Shown piece by piece: positions 17,152-25,767 of a stretch of 64,000 nucleotides of DNA. Where the stretch lies: the NCBI GenBank assembly GCA_016186905.1, contig JACPKS010000111.1:1-64000 (forward strand), given 5' to 3'. This DNA is from Deltaproteobacteria bacterium (GTDB lineage: Bacteria; Bdellovibrionota; UBA1018; UBA923). The first letter of the stretch is position 1, and the number at the start of each line of letters is the position of its first letter. The translations under genes and the position numbers were made by a program. The notes beneath the pieces are model-generated. The model had not been told where the DNA came from. It saw only the letters and a program-made list of their open reading frames with translations, and did not search any database.

Positions 17152-18384
17152 TCAGCCGAGCGAATCGAGCGCTTTCACGATCCGATTCGCGCCTTCCTCG
17201 ACGTCAGCGTCCGACATCGCGAAACTGATTCGCAGATAGCCGTCCGCTCCGAATCCGGCTCCGGCAACGGTGACGACCTGCGATCGGTCCAATAAATAAA
17301 AAGCCAGGTCTTCGCTTCCGCGAAGAACCTCCGGCTTCCCATCTTTATTGTACGTTCGGCCCGCGAACCGCTCAACATTGAGGAAGAGGTAAAAAGCCCC
17401 CTGGGGCTCCACGAAACTGCATTTGTTGCAGCGGGAAAATATTTCCGACATGCGGTCGCGGCGGCGGCGGAAGGCTTCGACCATGGGTGCGAGCTCATTG
17501 TCGGGGATTTCAAGGGCTTTGACCGCGGCTTTCTGCACGATCGAGGCCGCGCCCGACGTGCTCTGCCCCTGCACGAGCGTCATCGCGGCGATGAGATCTC
17601 TTGGCCCAGCCGCGTATCCCAGCCGCCAACCCGTCATCGCGTAGGCTTTCGAAAATCCATTCACCGTAAGCGTTCTTCGGAAAGCATCTTCGGAGAGCGA
17701 CGCGAACGACGCGAACTCGACCCCGTAAACGAGTTTTTCGTAGATTTCATCCGACACCACCCAGACGCCGGGCCCGCCCGAACGCGCGGCTTCCTCTAAC
17801 ACGCGCGCAAGCGCTGCTTGCTCTTCGCGCGTGTAAACCGCTCCGGTGGGATTGGAAGGGCTGTTGAGAACAAGCACCTTGGTTTTCCTGGTCAGCGCTT
17901 TTTGAAGCTGGACGGGCGTGATCTTAAAGCCGGCGCTCTGTGGCGCATCGAGAATCACGGGCACTCCGCCGGCGAGCTTCACCATCTCGGGATAACTCAC
18001 CCAGTAGGGCGCGAGGATGATGACTTCATCGCCGGGACTCACGGCCGCGAGCAGGAAATTGAAAATCGACTGCTTCGCCCCGCACGACACGAGAACCGCG
18101 TCCTGCGCGTACTCAAGACCGTTGTCGCGCTTGAACTTCGCCGAGATCCCTTTGCGCAGCTCGGGAATTCCGGAAACCTGCGTGTACTTCGAAAAATCCG
18201 CGCGAATCGCCGCGATCGCTTCGTCTTTGACCGGCTCAAGCACGGGAAAATCCGGCTCGCCCGCCGTAAGATTGATGACCTTTTTTCCTTTGGCCGCGAG
18301 CTCGCGCGCGAGCGCGTTCATCTTGAGCGTTGAGCTCTCTAAAACCCCTTTGAGCCGCGAGGAAAGCGTCAGCCCGGCGCTCAT
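17152..18384 (-). CDS. Aspartate aminotransferase family (class I/II)
   Basis: PLP-dependent aminotransferase of fold type I, 410 aa, subgroup I-gamma-like. Features are INLTAGEPDF (37-46) near the N-terminus, APYWVSYPEM, VLNSPSNPTGAVY (the conserved Asn-Pro), the Asp-Glu pair VSDEIYEKL, and the Schiff-base Lys in NGFSKAYAMTGWRLGY. This set fits aspartate:2-oxoglutarate aminotransferases such as AspB, with possible activity on prephenate or aromatic acids. Its ATG overlaps the coaD stop by 4 nt, giving an rsmD-coaD-aminotransferase operon. Confidence 0.9.
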   Translation of the reverse strand: MSAGLTLSSRLKGVLESSTLKMNALARELAAKGKKVINLTAGEPDFPVLEPVKDEAIAAIRADFSKYTQVSGIPELRKGISAKFKRDNGLEYAQDAVLVSCGAKQSIFNFLLAAVSPGDEVIILAPYWVSYPEMVKLAGGVPVILDAPQSAGFKITPVQLQKALTRKTKVLVLNSPSNPTGAVYTREEQAALARVLEEAARSGGPGVWVVSDEIYEKLVYGVEFASFASLSEDAFRRTLTVNGFSKAYAMTGWRLGYAAGPRDLIAAMTLVQGQSTSGAASIVQKAAVKALEIPDNELAPMVEAFRRRRDRMSEIFSRCNKCSFVEPQGAFYLFLNVERFAGRTYNKDGKPEVLRGSEDLAFYLLDRSQVVTVAGAGFGADGYLRISFAMSDADVEEGANRIVKALDSLG

Positions 18385-18866
18385 CGTTTTTTTCTCTTGC
18401 GATCAAGGCAGCGCAGGACTTGGCGTGGCACGTATTGGGAGACATCGCCGCCGAAAAGAAAAAGCTCCTTGATCATCGTCGAGCTGATGAAGAACAGGTT
18501 CTGACCCGTCATCATGAAAAACGTCTCCACGCCGGGATTGAGATTCTTGTTCATCGCCGCCATCATGAACTCGTACTCGAAGTCGCTTGCGGCGCGAAGA
18601 CCGCGAATCACGGCGTGCGCGCGGTGCTTGCGCGCGTAATTCATGATGAGACCGTCCCAGCGGTCGACCTTCACGCGCTTATGGCCCTTGAAAACGTCGC
18701 GGATGAGATCGACGCGCTCGTCGACGCCAAGTAGCGGATTCTTGCGGGAACTCGCCGCCACCACGACCGTGATCTCATGGAAAACCGTTAGGCTGCGTTC
18801 GATGATGTCGAGATGCCCGTTGGTCAGCGGGTCGAAATGCCCGGGGTAGATGGCCCTGCGGATCAT
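18381..18866 (-). CDS. coaD: Phosphopantetheine adenylyltransferase
   Basis: Penultimate step of CoA synthesis: 4'-phosphopantetheine plus ATP gives dephospho-CoA. 161 aa, standard length. YPGHFDPLTNGHLDII (7-22) contains the nucleotidyltransferase HxGH-type motif (TNGH). RGLRAASDFEYEFMMAAMN and ISSTMIKEL are family signatures. The hexameric enzyme is cytoplasmic. It overlaps rsmD upstream and the aminotransferase downstream by 4 nt each; rsmD-coaD adjacency is common in bacteria. Confidence 0.96.
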   Translation of the reverse strand: MIRRAIYPGHFDPLTNGHLDIIERSLTVFHEITVVVAASSRKNPLLGVDERVDLIRDVFKGHKRVKVDRWDGLIMNYARKHRAHAVIRGLRAASDFEYEFMMAAMNKNLNPGVETFFMMTGQNLFFISSTMIKELFLFGGDVSQYVPRQVLRCLDRKRKKR

Positions 18867-19501
18867 GTCCGTGATTTTACGAAGAAGTGGACCGCGCTGT
18901 CACCGTAATTCTTGCGATCATACGCGCGCAGCCGCGCTCTGGCCGGCAGATCCGAGGCACGCGACGGGTCGGGTTCGTCGCTTGGTTTTTCTGGCCCCTT
19001 TTCGCGCGCGGCCGCCTCGAAGAGCAGCAGCCCGCCCGCCTCAATGCGATGATGGCGCGCTTCGAGCTCCAAAATCCTCTCAAGCCAGCCTTTCTCGTAC
19101 GGCGGATCGCAGAAGATCACGCGCGCAAGCGGGAGTGCCGCGTACGCAGCCACTACGTCCTGCTTGACCACGCTCATTCCCGGAAGCTCAAGCCCCTGCT
19201 TCTCGAAACACCGCGCGGCGATTTCGAGATTATGCTTGAGCACGCGAAGTACCGGCTTGGACGACTCCACGAACGCGACCGAGCCGGCGCCGTTGCTCGC
19301 CGCTTCGATTCCCCATGCGCCGGTCCCCGCGAAAAGATCGATGACGGCAGCGGCATCCAGGATCGTGCTGCCGCCCCAGCGAAAATTCCTGAGGACGTTG
19401 AAGAGCGCTTGTCTCAAACGCTCGCCCGACGGACGAGTGCCGGGCGCCTGCGGCGAACGAAGCTGAACGCCCTTCAAAAGTCCAGAGGCGATTTGGATCA
19501 T
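18863..19501 (-). CDS. rsmD: 16S rRNA (guanine966-N2)-methyltransferase
   Basis: SAM-dependent methylation of G966 in 16S rRNA. 212 aa. After the N-terminal SGLLKGVQLRSP and TRPSGERLRQALFNVL blocks comes SAM motif I, DLFAGTGAWGIEA, and the catalytic DPPY tetrad in VIFCDPPYEKGW. An insertion rich in charged residues (about 165-190) precedes the last strand. Its stop overlaps the start of coaD. It starts 26 nt after the stop of the 19528 gene. Confidence 0.92.
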   Translation of the reverse strand: MIQIASGLLKGVQLRSPQAPGTRPSGERLRQALFNVLRNFRWGGSTILDAAAVIDLFAGTGAWGIEAASNGAGSVAFVESSKPVLRVLKHNLEIAARCFEKQGLELPGMSVVKQDVVAAYAALPLARVIFCDPPYEKGWLERILELEARHHRIEAGGLLLFEAAAREKGPEKPSDEPDPSRASDLPARARLRAYDRKNYGDSAVHFFVKSRT

Positions 19502-19527: not shown

Positions 19528-20007
19528 TCAGGCGGCTGCTTTGTCTTGAAACGGAATGCGAAACTCCGCTCCCTGATCCGTCATGATCGTAAGCCCCGTG
19601 TCGCTGCACTGAAACGTCACGGTGATGCCCGCACGCGTAAACTCCAACTGCACTTCCGCGCAACCGCCGACTTTGAGCGAGAGATTGCCGTTTCCGCCCT
19701 CGCTTTCGGTTCTCATGAGCGGCTCGTCTTGCACTGCAACGGCATCGGTTTCGGCCATGGTTTCCTCGTACTTTGTCGAAGTTTCATATTGATCGGAGGC
19801 GCGAAGCGGCACTACATTTCCGGCTGTGTTTCCAACCGCGCTTGCGGCGGTTTCATCTTGCGGCGCGTTTACCGCACCCGTCTCAGCGACAGGCTCGTCG
19901 ATTTTGCTTTCGAGATCTTCGATTTCTTTCATGATTCGATCGATCTCCTGGCCTTCTTCACCGGAAGATTCCGCTACTGCCGCCACGTTCTTATTGCTTT
20001 GTTCCAT
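19528..20007 (-). CDS. Small acidic protein of unknown function
   Basis: 159 aa with a good GGAGG ribosome site 5 nt from the ATG. Residues 15-38 form an acidic helix (IDRIMKEIEDLESKI), followed by about 70 residues of acidic low complexity. The last 45 residues look like a compact beta domain (LSLKVGGCAEVQLEFTR, then VTFQCSDTGLTI). No signal peptide. It heads the rsmD-coaD direction. No family recognised. Confidence 0.6.
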   Translation of the reverse strand: MEQSNKNVAAVAESSGEEGQEIDRIMKEIEDLESKIDEPVAETGAVNAPQDETAASAVGNTAGNVVPLRASDQYETSTKYEETMAETDAVAVQDEPLMRTESEGGNGNLSLKVGGCAEVQLEFTRAGITVTFQCSDTGLTIMTDQGAEFRIPFQDKAAA

Positions 20008-20209
20008 AGGTCCTCCATATTTTTTTTCGGCAGACCTTTACAGATTCTGAAGTTTTCAGCTACTTACTATTCCTCACTTGGAAGGGACCTGGCGGAAAAT
20101 TTTTCCCCCTGAACCGGCCAAAGAATTAGGCCACGGGCAATGATCGTCGCATGCGTGAGGCGGCGTCCGATTCAGGCATCTTGAAAATACGGCTGAGGAG
20201 TTGGGACAC

Positions 20210-23053
20210 ATGCCATCCGAGAGCGGGCTTCTCTCTCTTCTGCATGTTGAGGCGTTGCGTTTGCGCCTGAACACGCCGGAAGAAAACGGGGCCCCGGAAA
20301 AAGAAGTCGGAAACAAACCCGAAGCCCTGACGGGCATCGGAATCCGGTCCGAAACCCGGAGCATCGCCGAGCTCTATTCGGACGCATGGCCGACCGGCGT
20401 CAGCGCCGCCGACCTTCGCGGCGCGCTTCACCGCAACCTTCGCAAGGTTTTCGACGCCCTCTTAAAGGACGTCAAGAACGCAAGAGACCGGATGCTTGCC
20501 TTGAACGCCGGCCGGCGCGCGATGGTCGAGCGCCGCCTTGAGTTCATCGCCAGAAGAATCGCGCATGCCCGCGGCGAGCGCTTTCAAAGGCAGCTCACTC
20601 TGACCGAGGTGCTTCGCGACGCGGGAATCGCCGCCGACCGCGAACCGGCGACCCTTGCCGGGGCCGCTTGGGCCGCGTTTCAAGGCGAGGTCGCGCTCTA
20701 CAACGTCTTCGAGCTTTTTTTCCTCAAGTCGCTCGAGTTCCACGCCTGGAGGCCGTTCGAGGACGCCGACCTCCGGCGCATGAATTTCGCCGCGCACAGC
20801 TTTCTCAATCACCGCGCCGTGGACTTCGCCCACGACAAGCACTGCTGGAACTTCGTGCGCAACAACGTGTACTCCTGGTATGTCCCCTCGCAGGAAGTCG
20901 CCGACGCGATCTCGGCGGTGTTGCGCGAGATCGCGCGCAAGACGCCGCTTTCGTGGAGCGACGCGGACCTCTTGAACTGGACCGCCGAGCTCGCAGGCGG
21001 GCTCTCGCATCTGCGTTTCCGCGAGGACCGCGCGCACGCCGAAAATATCGTCGCGTTCGTCGAAAAACATCTCGGCATCCCGCTCGTGAGCGAGTTCCAC
21101 GGCCGCTGCGTTTGCAGCAAAGTTCTCCTGCCCGCGCTTGAGCGCGGAGGCATCGCGCTGGCGATTCTCGACCGGCTGCTTTCAAGTTTGAGCGGAACGA
21201 TCTCGCTCCACGAAGAAGAAATGAACCCGGAGTCCAAGCAACTTCAGAACGCGCTCTGGGCGTGCGAGTCGGAAGGCCTGGAACTTTTTTGGACCGAGGT
21301 CATGTCGCTCTTGAAAACGCTCTCGAGCGTCAGCGCCGACAAGGCGATCGCGCCGGTGTATCCGCATCTTGTGACGGACTCCGCGCCCCTGTACCGCGTT
21401 CCGCACGTGCTTCGCGGCGTTCAGATGCTGGCCCTTGAGCTGCACAACCTCGACCAGATGCCTTTGAGCGGCCCCGAGCTCTCGGCTCTGCATCATGGGT
21501 CCGCCGGCCAGATCCAGCAGCTCGAAATGTTCGACCTTGCGATCGTGACCGACTCTCCTGAGCGGGCCAAGTCGGCCAACTGGATGGCCGCGCTCGCCGA
21601 TCAACTTCCCTATTGGAAGTCGCTCGTCGGCTCGGCGACGAATCTCAACTGGGGCGAGCTGCACCTTTACCTCGCGCTCTCGAAGCTGAAGGAAAACAGC
21701 GTCTGCGTCTATCTCTCGCATCGCATGCTGCCGGAAGGGCGCGACGGCGACAAGCTCCGCAAGGCCCTCCTCTCGCAGGCAGCGCTCCAGGAGCTCATCG
21801 AGGTTCAGGGCGGCGCTCTCGGGACCCATCGTTATGTCTACGTCTTCCGCAGAACGGCCGACAAAGCCCGGCGCGACGTCCATCGGCCCCGTTTCGGAAA
21901 AACCGAAACCTTCAACGCGGACGACCTGGCAAGCAGGCTGGAAAACGCCAACTGCGTGCAATCCGAAATTCTCGAGCGCGGCTGGAGCCACCTCTTCGTA
22001 ACGGGAAACGCCCCGCTCGTACGCCATCTGGAGCATCGGTTCCCGAAGCTTATGCACGTTGCGTCCGTGCAAGGCGTTCCATGCGCGGCAGGCGATGGCA
22101 AACGATCCGCCGGACAAGTCTCCTTCACCATGGCCAATCAGCTGACCGGCGCGCTTCACGGGTGGCCGACGGAGACCGGCGTTCGCTTTCACACCCACTC
22201 GAACAACGAGGCGTCGTGGCGGATCTTTCCGCGCAATCCGCTCGATGTTTCATGGCTCGAATGCCTGCTCAATTCGGGCGTGACGCAGTCGTGGATCCGC
22301 CACCGCGCGCAGCAAACGCCCGGGCGTCATCTCAAGATCAACGACGTCCGCCAGATTCCGGTGGTCGATCTCTCCCACGTATCCAGCGCCGACGTTCACC
22401 GCGCATCGGAATTATTGGGAACAGTCCGTCCGGATCGCACGGCTCTTGGGGACTGGCTCGCTCACGGCGACGCGCTTGCCATGCGAAAAGCGAAGTTCAT
22501 GGCGCTTGCCAGCCGCGTGGGCTCGATGGAAAAGCTTCTCGATCGCTATCGGCCGCTTTTCAAGGATGGAACTTTGGACGGAACCTCCGGGCTTCCGGAG
22601 CTTCGGCCCGAAGCCATCACGCATTTCTACCCGGATCGGCTGCTTTGCGCTCTGGCGAAGTCGCCTGACGCGCAGATCCAGTATCGTTCGCGCGAGTTAT
22701 CGCCGCTGCCTTCAGACAGCTGGACCGTCTTGAGCGCGGACTGCGTCGTTCAACCGCGCCGGTCTTTTATCGTCATTGCCACGCGCCAGGGGCCCTCGAT
22801 TCAGCTCACCGTCCCCACTGGGGCCGAGAAATTCGTCGCATCGCAGATTATGGCAATGGCAGGACGAACCTGGAGCGAAACGCTGTCATTGCTCCAGATT
22901 CCGATGGATGTCTCCCTTTTCGCCGCGCAGTCCAGCGAAATCGTCCGTGCCTTGAACCAAACCGCGCAGGAAACCGATCTCTATCGCGACGCGATTGATC
23001 GGCTCGCTTGCGATCTGTTCGAGATGCCCGCCGAGCTGCGTGAGTCTTTTTAA
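20210..23053 (+). CDS. Degenerate N6-adenine methyltransferase-like protein
   Basis: 947-aa protein whose order of segments matches large type IIG/BREX-like adenine methyltransferases but whose active-site motifs are gone. A helical N-terminal half is followed by HGRCVCSKVLLPAL (about 296-309), where DPxCGSGxFL would stand. FDLAIVTDSP (about 440-449) then stands where fDvIvgNPPY is expected, with TDSP replacing NPPY. Next come the strand/helix GELHLYLALSKLKENS and LRKALL near 515, normal for this fold. LECLLNSGVTQSWI with RQIPVVD (about 685-716) resembles the TaqI-type specificity domain. ATG 20210 has GAGGAG 9 nt upstream; TTG 20201 abuts it. Probably not catalytic; DNA or SAM binding is untested. 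No restriction partner is nearby. Confidence 0.6.
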   Translation: MPSESGLLSLLHVEALRLRLNTPEENGAPEKEVGNKPEALTGIGIRSETRSIAELYSDAWPTGVSAADLRGALHRNLRKVFDALLKDVKNARDRMLALNAGRRAMVERRLEFIARRIAHARGERFQRQLTLTEVLRDAGIAADREPATLAGAAWAAFQGEVALYNVFELFFLKSLEFHAWRPFEDADLRRMNFAAHSFLNHRAVDFAHDKHCWNFVRNNVYSWYVPSQEVADAISAVLREIARKTPLSWSDADLLNWTAELAGGLSHLRFREDRAHAENIVAFVEKHLGIPLVSEFHGRCVCSKVLLPALERGGIALAILDRLLSSLSGTISLHEEEMNPESKQLQNALWACESEGLELFWTEVMSLLKTLSSVSADKAIAPVYPHLVTDSAPLYRVPHVLRGVQMLALELHNLDQMPLSGPELSALHHGSAGQIQQLEMFDLAIVTDSPERAKSANWMAALADQLPYWKSLVGSATNLNWGELHLYLALSKLKENSVCVYLSHRMLPEGRDGDKLRKALLSQAALQELIEVQGGALGTHRYVYVFRRTADKARRDVHRPRFGKTETFNADDLASRLENANCVQSEILERGWSHLFVTGNAPLVRHLEHRFPKLMHVASVQGVPCAAGDGKRSAGQVSFTMANQLTGALHGWPTETGVRFHTHSNNEASWRIFPRNPLDVSWLECLLNSGVTQSWIRHRAQQTPGRHLKINDVRQIPVVDLSHVSSADVHRASELLGTVRPDRTALGDWLAHGDALAMRKAKFMALASRVGSMEKLLDRYRPLFKDGTLDGTSGLPELRPEAITHFYPDRLLCALAKSPDAQIQYRSRELSPLPSDSWTVLSADCVVQPRRSFIVIATRQGPSIQLTVPTGAEKFVASQIMAMAGRTWSETLSLLQIPMDVSLFAAQSSEIVRALNQTAQETDLYRDAIDRLACDLFEMPAELRESF

Positions 23054-23269: not shown

Positions 23270-24055
23270 ATGTCGTCGTTGAGCCGGGCAAACCTCTCGC
23301 TATCGCTTTACTTCAAGGCGCTCTGCCAGCGCTTTCTCTTTCTCGAACACCTGGCCGAGTCGCTTGAGGAGTGGTCGGCTCAGAGAGGGCTTGGAGAGAA
23401 GTCCGCCGAGGTCTGCGCGCGCTGGACGAAAGAAAAATCCAGTTTCGCCCGGCTTTCCCGTGAAGTACATGATGCGGCAGTTGCAGTCGAGGACCATGTC
23501 GCATCCCGGCCCCGCCCCTTGCTCGACTTCAGGCTCGACCGGATCCTCGATGACCGGCCGGCCGACTCTTTCGTCGCGGATCTCGAAAGACAAATCCTGG
23601 AATACGAAGCGGCCTTCCTCTCCTGCGTTCTGACGTCCGCTCCAGATCTCACCGCGAAATTTCGAAAGATCGCGCTCCAATGGGGCCGCATGATCGCGCA
23701 CGATTTTCTTCTCGGGTCGGGCGTCGAAGGCCTAAGCGCGCAATTACGCTTTCGCGGTTTTCTTGCCATCGTGAAAGAGACGCTTTTTGGCGGCACTTTA
23801 GGCCTTGCCGCGCTCGTCGTACGCCGGCATACCTCCGACTGCATCGAATTCGACCTGGTCTCGTGCCCGCACCGCCGGCTTCGCGAAGCGGCCGGACTCG
23901 CAGCCGAGGTCACGGATTTCGCGTGCGATCTTGAAGCGAGGGTCACGCGGGGCTTCGCCACGGCGCTGATTCCGGAAGCGCGCCACAGCCGCACCCGAAC
24001 GCAATGGCGTGGAGAGCCGCACTGCAAGGACGAGCTGATTCTGCGAACGACATGA
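23270..24055 (+). CDS. Unknown protein, possibly ATC-hydrolase-like fold
   Basis: 261 aa, largely helical N-terminal two thirds. The C-terminal third shows spaced Cys and a CP...C...TRT...C arrangement: FDLVSCPHRR, then FACDLEARVTRGF, then RTRTQWRGEPHC. This resembles the L-2-amino-thiazoline-4-carboxylic acid hydrolase-like family, but the resemblance is short and from memory. Its stop overlaps the start of the ChaN-like gene (ATGA), so the two are coupled. It follows the methyltransferase-like gene across the repeat element, in the same direction. Confidence 0.45.
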   Translation: MSSLSRANLSLSLYFKALCQRFLFLEHLAESLEEWSAQRGLGEKSAEVCARWTKEKSSFARLSREVHDAAVAVEDHVASRPRPLLDFRLDRILDDRPADSFVADLERQILEYEAAFLSCVLTSAPDLTAKFRKIALQWGRMIAHDFLLGSGVEGLSAQLRFRGFLAIVKETLFGGTLGLAALVVRRHTSDCIEFDLVSCPHRRLREAAGLAAEVTDFACDLEARVTRGFATALIPEARHSRTRTQWRGEPHCKDELILRTT

Positions 24056-25767
24056 AGAGCACAGCCGCGGACTCAACCCACAAGCGCCTGGTCCGCCTTC
24101 AACGACACATCCACAACACGATCAAGGCCGAGGTGCGCAAGGCGCTGGGCTCGCAATCGGCCGCGATCCGCCGCTATTACGAGGCATACAAGCGCGAGTT
24201 CCGCGGGCCGGTTCGGCACTCGAGCAAAGAGGAGCTTCTGAAGGATTGCGTGCGCGCGCACATCGTGCTCGTGGGCGACTATCACACGTTCTCGCAGTCG
24301 CAGAAAGCGGCGTTAAGGCTTCTGCGCGAGCTCGTGAACTGGGACACGCCGATTACGTTGGCCCTTGAGATGGTGCCCTCCGCGCATCAAAAAACGCTCG
24401 ACGGGCTGTTATCGGGCCGGCTCGGCGAGGAAGAGTTCTTGAGGCGCGTCGACTACCCGCGCTCCTGGGGGTTTCCGTGGCCGCACTTCCGGCCGCTTCT
24501 GGTTTTCGCGAAAGAACACAAGCTGCCGGTGCTGGCGCTCAACGTCGACTCCCCCCATCTCGAAGCGCGCGATGCGCATGCCGCGTCGATCCTGGCCGCG
24601 TACGCGAAGAAACATCCCGCCCGCAAGATCTTCGCAATCTACGGCGACCTCCATATCGCGCGAGGGCACATCCCCAAATACCTGAAGAGAAGGTTCACCG
24701 AGGAAAATCTCAGGCGGCGGCTGCTTACCGTTTTTCAGAACAGCGAATCGCTGTACTGGAAGCTCGCAACGCAAAAAATGGAACACACCATCGACGTGCT
24801 CCGGCTGGGGCGCGGAAGGTATTGCATCATGAACGCCGCGCCCTGGGTGAAACTGCAGTCGTACCTGCAATGGGCCGAGGCCGCGACCGAAACGGGCGAG
24901 GCGCCCGAACTCACGGCCGGTTCAAGAGCGACGCTGCAGGACGTGCCGCTTCAGGAAATTCCGCTTCACGACGTTCCGTTGCACGAGATGGCGCACGATT
25001 GCCTGAGAAACCTCGCCGAGCTGCTGGGAATCCCGCTTCCCAGCGGCGTCGATTTCACGATCCAGACGGTTCACGACCTGGCGTTTTTGGAGAGCGCCCG
25101 AAGCCGGGCCGAGCTCACGCGCGTGGAGCGAAAGATCGTGAAATACCACGTCATCGGCAACCGTACGCTTTACATCCGCGACCACCACACGCTTTACCTG
25201 CCTTCGACCGGAATCAATTCGCTGTGCGAGGGCGTGGCCCGGCTGCTGCACGCGATGGTTTCGCGCAGCCGCACGCTTTTTCACGATCCGTCCGAGCATT
25301 TCTTCGCGGCCGCGCTCGCCGCCGCCGTGGCGTATTTCGGGAGCAAGGTTTTGAACCACAAACGCAAGTGCGACCTCGAAGAGGATTTTCGGCTGCTGCT
25401 CGAACGGCCCCTCACGAGCCGCGCTCTGCCGCGCGAGCGCCTGCAGAGAAAAGTCGCGCGCGCCGTGCTCTCGCACTGCCGCGCCAACCGCGCGTTTTTG
25501 CGAGACGGAGAGTACCGCGCACCCCGCTCGGCTACGGGGCCGTCGCAAACCTCGGTTTTTCTGGAGACTGCGCTCGCGCTCGGCGCAATCTTGGGAGAGC
25601 GGCTTTATGCGGCCTTTGTGGAGGGGAAATTCCCCGCCGACAAGATCCGCGCGCTTTTCAAGGCGAATCTCGATTCGCCGAAAGCCGCGCGGCGGTTGTA
25701 TCTCGGGCTTCTCACCGATTTGAAAGACGTGACGCTCGCGCATGCGAGCAAGCAGTCGCTGTTGTGA
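24052..25767 (+). CDS. ChaN-like haem-binding/TIKI superfamily protein
   Basis: 571 aa from ATG 24052, chosen because it overlaps the upstream stop. The N-terminal ChaN/PF04187 domain (about 65-220) is clear. IVLVGDYHTFSQSQ carries the first His, followed by ALEMVPSAHQ, DYPRSWGFPWPHFRP, and FAIYGDLHIARGHIPKYL with the second His pair. Family members bind haem or act as metalloproteases of the TIKI/TraB group. There is no signal peptide or lipobox, so unlike ChaN it is probably cytoplasmic. The second half (about 300-571) is helical and unrecognised, including a short PLQEIPLHDVPLHE repeat. Confidence 0.75.
   Translation: MKSTAADSTHKRLVRLQRHIHNTIKAEVRKALGSQSAAIRRYYEAYKREFRGPVRHSSKEELLKDCVRAHIVLVGDYHTFSQSQKAALRLLRELVNWDTPITLALEMVPSAHQKTLDGLLSGRLGEEEFLRRVDYPRSWGFPWPHFRPLLVFAKEHKLPVLALNVDSPHLEARDAHAASILAAYAKKHPARKIFAIYGDLHIARGHIPKYLKRRFTEENLRRRLLTVFQNSESLYWKLATQKMEHTIDVLRLGRGRYCIMNAAPWVKLQSYLQWAEAATETGEAPELTAGSRATLQDVPLQEIPLHDVPLHEMAHDCLRNLAELLGIPLPSGVDFTIQTVHDLAFLESARSRAELTRVERKIVKYHVIGNRTLYIRDHHTLYLPSTGINSLCEGVARLLHAMVSRSRTLFHDPSEHFFAAALAAAVAYFGSKVLNHKRKCDLEEDFRLLLERPLTSRALPRERLQRKVARAVLSHCRANRAFLRDGEYRAPRSATGPSQTSVFLETALALGAILGERLYAAFVEGKFPADKIRALFKANLDSPKAARRLYLGLLTDLKDVTLAHASKQSLL

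Follow-up and report, generated by a model that had tools for sequence, protein, structure and literature searches.

A putative pseudo-methyltransferase of Eco57I descent kept opposite rsmD in deep branches of a bacterial phylum

The locus and its neighbourhood

The window, i.e. the whole stretch of 64,000 nucleotides that was analysed, belongs to a draft assembly of 115 contigs and carries on its forward strand the putative pseudo-methyltransferase gene described here (Table 1). The initial annotation had reported an intact frame of 947 codons and a set of methyltransferase-like segments in a given order: in an ORF check of the window, 20210-23053 was a single frame, open throughout, and every segment was found, in the order stated. 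A TTG start option at 20201 would add three residues. Residues 1-75 form a poorly conserved tail (alignments A1 and A2). In the N-terminal region that follows, [YF]SW[YFLA] is present in 68 of the 71 family members, and YSW is missing from all seven active relatives ('active' designating enzymes with intact catalytic motifs, a label given from sequence). Further on, the motif II core ALWACESE is paired by alignment with GLFGCDID of a sister branch of the family (alignment A3), GELHLYLALSKLK occupies residues 482-494 and LRKALL residues 516-521, and LECLLNSG and RQIPVVD are found at residues 683-690 and 714-720.

Table 1. The pseudo-methyltransferase gene, its segments and its neighbours in the window
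Feature	Position	Strand	Basis
aspC, coaD and rsmD, syntenic anchor phylum-wide	17152..19501	-	neighbourhood comparison
Family 6, small acidic divergent protein, usual neighbour in the class and in f9	19528..20007	-	neighbourhood comparison
Putative pseudo-methyltransferase gene, 947 aa (P0001)	20210..23053	+	open frame; orthologues in the class and in family f9
N-terminal region, residues 76-290, conserved phylum-wide	20435..21079	+	alignments A1 and A2, segment identities
Family signature NVYSWYVP; N219, S222 and W223 nearly invariant	20864..20887	+	alignment
Degenerate motif I (SAM loop), VLLPALERGG replacing DPxxGSG, residues 305-314	21122..21151	+	aligned to FDPTMGSGNFL-type loops of L102, L104, L105 and L109
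Motif II region ACESEGLELFWTEV, aligned to GCDIDSFAHFFSEI	21260..21301	+	sister-branch alignment
Degenerate motif IV, FDLAIVTDSP replacing ...NPP[YF], residues 441-450	21530..21559	+	aligned to FDYCIGCPPE and, via it, to the active NPPY
Post-motif IV stretch GELHLYLALSKLK...LRKALL, best preserved methyltransferase segment	21653..21772	+	covered by hhalign of the class against active Eco57I enzymes
End of the specificity (TRD)-like region, residues 670-722	22217..22375	+	PADLOC Specificity_I (E 1.9e-4) and mad5 (E 0.007); TaqI_C in the sister branch
Conserved C-terminal GRTWSETLSLLQIP; W888 and E890 invariant in A1, P898 nearly invariant	22862..22903	+	alignment A1
Family 7, co-directional, translationally coupled in f5	23270..24055	+	weak ATC hydrolase likeness

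The gene diverges from rsmD-coaD-aspC (rsmD named by Pfam scan, aspC and coaD from sequence) in the large majority of loci, usually with family 6 directly opposite, and this arrangement is common to the taxonomic class of the host (hereafter the class), to most loci of host family f9 and to the sister branches where the contig is long enough. Family 6 proteins have conserved ends (N-terminal EIDxIMxEIExL and C-terminal GxEFxIP) and gave no usable domain match. The downstream partner varies, being family 7, a ChaN-like protein or a Dtd-like protein. In host family f5, family 7 adjoins or overlaps the pseudo-methyltransferase gene (gaps of -51 to +16 in most); it is conserved across the class, and its likeness to ATC hydrolase (PF14196, E 1.9e-4) is under the cut-off. 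The ChaN/Tiki-superfamily neighbour, at 24004-25767 in the window, is also conserved (PF04187, E 3e-28; 571-587 aa) and has a long, unassigned C-terminal extension. Neither a nuclease nor a defence partner turned up at the family loci, and brxC and pglZ were not among the genes beside the pseudo-methyltransferase gene, which were aspC, coaD, rsmD, family 6, family 7 and the gene of the ChaN-like protein. When the upstream regions of eight f5 genomes were aligned, no conserved element stood out as an operator, and the conserved blocks mostly covered the first part of the divergent gene.

Descent and loss of the catalytic motifs

Searched alone, the window protein had no match in Pfam, a single and meaningless one in NCBIfam, and nothing useful in a PDB sequence search; no nuclease family was matched in Pfam, NCBIfam or PADLOC. 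The two PADLOC matches (Table 1) are weak, and that to Specificity_I was given by the window protein only, out of 28 class members. TaqI_C in the sister branch reached at best E 0.0012, which is under its cut-off where scores were shown. An AlphaFold prediction from a 4-row alignment (the window protein with L032/L033) had a pLDDT of 37.7, too low for a fold to be read from it.

Profile comparison in two steps supports descent of the pseudo-methyltransferase from within the Eco57I superfamily. The class matched the sister branch with an hhalign E-value of 7e-48 over 778 columns, i.e. most of the length, and the sister branch matched seven NPP[YF] enzymes of the same phylum at 8e-27 over 548 columns; the direct comparison of the class with the same active set was weak (3.8e-4, probability 36%), and f9 matched the sister branch at 2e-7. 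Ten neighbour families used as controls remained at 0.06 or above against the class or f9 profiles (at least 0.13 for the class); the one exception among controls was the sister branch against RsmD (2e-5), itself also a SAM methyltransferase. Since the window protein matched the sister-branch profile at 1.1e-13 (profile positions 325-556, from motif I to post-IV) and the neighbour controls never fell below 0.06, a chance match is unlikely. The type IIG/BREX-like adenine methyltransferase ancestry suggested at the outset is supported by these comparisons.

The sister branch is also recognisable by itself: its members pass the gathering cut-offs of two Pfam families, Eco57I (E down to 4.2e-16) and N6_Mtase (2e-9), match MTase_II (5e-21) and mad2 (8e-15) in PADLOC and, in the PDB, match BrxX (9ewz, E 0.004), the only molecule below 0.01. 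Of the active proteins found, L179 and L180 came nearest; both are Type IIG-like, about 1170 aa long and contain NPPY, and they are collinear with the sister branch at motif I, motif IV and the TRD end. Near both lie alike proteins of ~500 aa (L179:1707-3203, MPKAYQLTKSKYCKG...; L180:1330-2841, MKTRNLSKSQYCRGKKC...), possibly part of a shared defence cluster. The family as a whole resembles the Type IIG/Eco57I methylases (PF07669) in the collinearity of motifs I and II, the motif IV position, the post-IV block and the C-terminal TRD-like region; unlike L179 and L180, its members are ~200 aa shorter, have motif I ~200-300 residues nearer the N-terminus, and lack NPP[YF] and mostly the SAM loop. 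With BrxX/PglX of BREX (PDB 9ewz) it shares a similar NTD-MTD-TRD-CTD order, the N-terminal similarity being very weak, but BrxX has NPPY and binds SAM (PMC11842806), and no brx/pgl partner genes lie at the locus. The likeness to MADS is limited to the mad2 match of the sister branch and the weak mad5 match of the window protein, whereas the family stands outside any defence gene cluster and lacks active methyltransferase motifs.

The initial annotation had held that the SAM loop and NPPY were replaced in the window protein, and the sister-branch alignment agrees, placing VLLPALERGG on motif I and TDSP on motif IV. NPPY-bearing orthologues, which it had considered a sign of local decay, were searched for: at the aligned position, neither NPP[YFW] nor [DNS]PP[YFWH] occurs in any of the 71 members, the lone SPPY (L108) sitting outside it. 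TDSP is not shared throughout, the replacement varying by branch: five sister-branch members read CPPE or APPE and the others (f24 and f26) have an eroded or missing motif, most members in the class carry a VEER/LEER-like sequence, and the window protein has TDSP where its relative L034 has VLDH. The SAM loop DPxxG[ST]G is kept in five of the 71 members, all of the sister branch (DPTMGSGNFL and similar); motif I is partly kept in f24 (LNLCAGSGQFL), while the order's two largest families have FSPTLRDG there, followed by a deletion of ~24 columns.

In the tree the family is split from the active enzymes by one branch with 100/100 support, and host groups f1, f2, f5, f7 and f9 each form one side of a branch. 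The sister branches join closest to the active enzymes; the deepest forks are weakly supported. Because an intact SAM loop goes together with CPPE or APPE in five members of the sister branch, catalysis was probably lost before SAM binding, and loss of NPPY first and of SAM binding later is the simplest order; parallel losses may also have occurred. The catalytic motifs would have disappeared before the phylum diversified, and the pseudo-methyltransferase is very probably unable to methylate.

Spread and selection

The extent of the family depended on the query: the single window protein found it in 34 of the 58 class genomes, and a 28-member profile raised this to 55. The three others comprise two incomplete genomes (56% and 75%) and one that is 97% complete; the latter (G004), from the same order, may represent a genuine loss. 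With a profile of seven f9 members the family was detected in 138 out of 369 genomes, of which 125 belong to f9, and branches f23, f24, f26 and f27 also carry it. Profile searches gave no match in the remaining families of the phylum (which may be Bdellovibrionota or a close relative), where the gene is either lost or too far diverged. Members are nearly always single-copy and mostly 880-1075 aa long. Two f9 genomes, G083 and G150, each have two full-length copies, which may be paralogues or assembly contamination (G083 is 9% contaminated). As a rule, restriction-modification genes are mobile and patchily distributed. In contrast to the family, which is chromosomally fixed, Eco57I-type methyltransferases over the Pfam cut-off occurred in only 13 of 57 class genomes. 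Searches of viral contigs with the A1 and A5 profiles gave no relatives, so that nothing points to a phage origin.

The proposal that the gene has been maintained by selection is supported by this spread, by the synteny and by dN/dS, which was 0.032-0.047 in most close pairs, similar to the values for aspC, coaD and rsmD; several pairs had a dS close to saturation, L044-L063, the pair least affected, giving 0.040, and two more distant pairs gave 0.15 and 0.20. Within f5, identity was 0.72 in the degenerate core versus 0.56 in the TRD-like region and 0.54 at the C-terminus, and within f2 0.56-0.62 versus 0.45 and 0.44; f9 and the sister branch show this contrast less distinctly. The TRD has likewise been reported to vary more than any other part of BrxX proteins (PMC11842806). 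Local decay of a recently inactivated restriction-modification gene, as the absence of NPPY and the SAM loop from the window protein might by itself suggest, was rejected and has a negligible probability in view of the spread, the intact frames of 900-1000 aa phylum-wide, the fixed synteny, the low dN/dS of most close pairs and the want of NPPY orthologues.

The fold family and ancestry are already known. No description of the family was found in the literature searched, and there is no Pfam or NCBIfam model for it; that a dead form has become fixed across a phylum's deep branches is, to the extent of these searches, new.

Proposed role and alternatives

We consider, with a probability of roughly three in four, that the gene encodes a fixed pseudo-methyltransferase acting most likely as a non-catalytic DNA-binding clamp or scaffold. 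Its ancestor would have combined a gamma-class N6-adenine DNA methyltransferase with a fused specificity domain (Eco57I/Type IIG/BrxX-like), without nuclease, and would have come to lie opposite rsmD before the branches sampled here diverged within the phylum. Motif IV would have gone first and SAM binding after, as the tree and the sister branch suggest, and the present protein would hold DNA with both its TRD-like and its pseudo-catalytic domain while recruiting or regulating something else. A non-catalytic housekeeping job is probable because a motif-less gene is kept at one chromosomal spot, under strong selection, in at least three deep branches, and a binding role is the most plausible one for a methyltransferase-specificity fusion that is dead yet strongly constrained. 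The DNA clamp is the first choice since a relative, BrxX, clamps DNA between its methyltransferase and TRD domains (PMC11842806). However, the Y511A change within NPPY disrupted DNA binding by BrxX (PMC11842806), so that loss of NPPY could have cost DNA binding too. The TRD-like region of the window protein is without net positive charge (17 K+R versus 15 D+E). DNA binding, taken by itself, stands at slightly less than an even chance; recognition of DNA without methylation, the role first suggested for the window protein, is a plausible candidate. A more specific proposal, put forward tentatively and with a little less confidence than DNA binding itself, is that a former restriction-type methyltransferase has served since the base of the phylum as a core sequence-specific DNA-binding factor (nucleoid, regulator or checkpoint) and is possibly essential.

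Three other roles are unlikely. The least unlikely is that of obligate partner, the dead subunit providing substrate binding in a heterodimer with an active methyltransferase. METTL14 sets the example: it is a dead amino-methyltransferase with the same kind of lesion, a degenerate xPPx motif (EPPL for DPPW), kept for non-catalytic substrate binding (PMC5023411), but it is a subunit of a eukaryotic RNA writer with an active partner, and none is known for the family. Active Eco57I-type partners are patchy in the class, which speaks against this role; the almost constant divergent neighbour, rsmD, does encode a true SAM methyltransferase. Adjacency of rsmD and coaD is common in bacteria generally, so that this neighbourhood is weak evidence of partnership.

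The fixed position beside rsmD might also hint at binding of RNA or the ribosome (rRNA- or tRNA-related) instead of DNA, as might purifying selection of housekeeping strength. We hold this to be somewhat less probable than the partner role, the closest profile relatives being DNA methyltransferases with TaqI_C/HsdS-like specificity domains and no RNA-binding domain having been matched. On a par with it is an enzyme or ligand sensor whose altered pocket takes another ligand or substrate: few parts of the protein are as well conserved as the degenerate core, a conserved loop peculiar to the class (FSPTLRDG) is present, and the sister branch combines a complete SAM loop with CPPE. Against it, the order's two largest families have the deletion after motif I, and the motif IV replacements differ between branches, unlike a shared new active site.

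A parallel in lineage-wide fixation is CamA of Clostridioides difficile, likewise a gamma-class adenine methyltransferase that is lineage-fixed and without nuclease (PMC8187626); unlike the family, CamA has NPPY, methylates CAAAAA and is fixed in a species, whereas the dead family is fixed across deep branches of a phylum. To conclude, an unannotated core gene is brought to notice, and, if the reading is true, it would show clearly, in a prokaryote, how a defence enzyme has turned into a non-catalytic housekeeping protein, comparable to METTL14 in eukaryotes.
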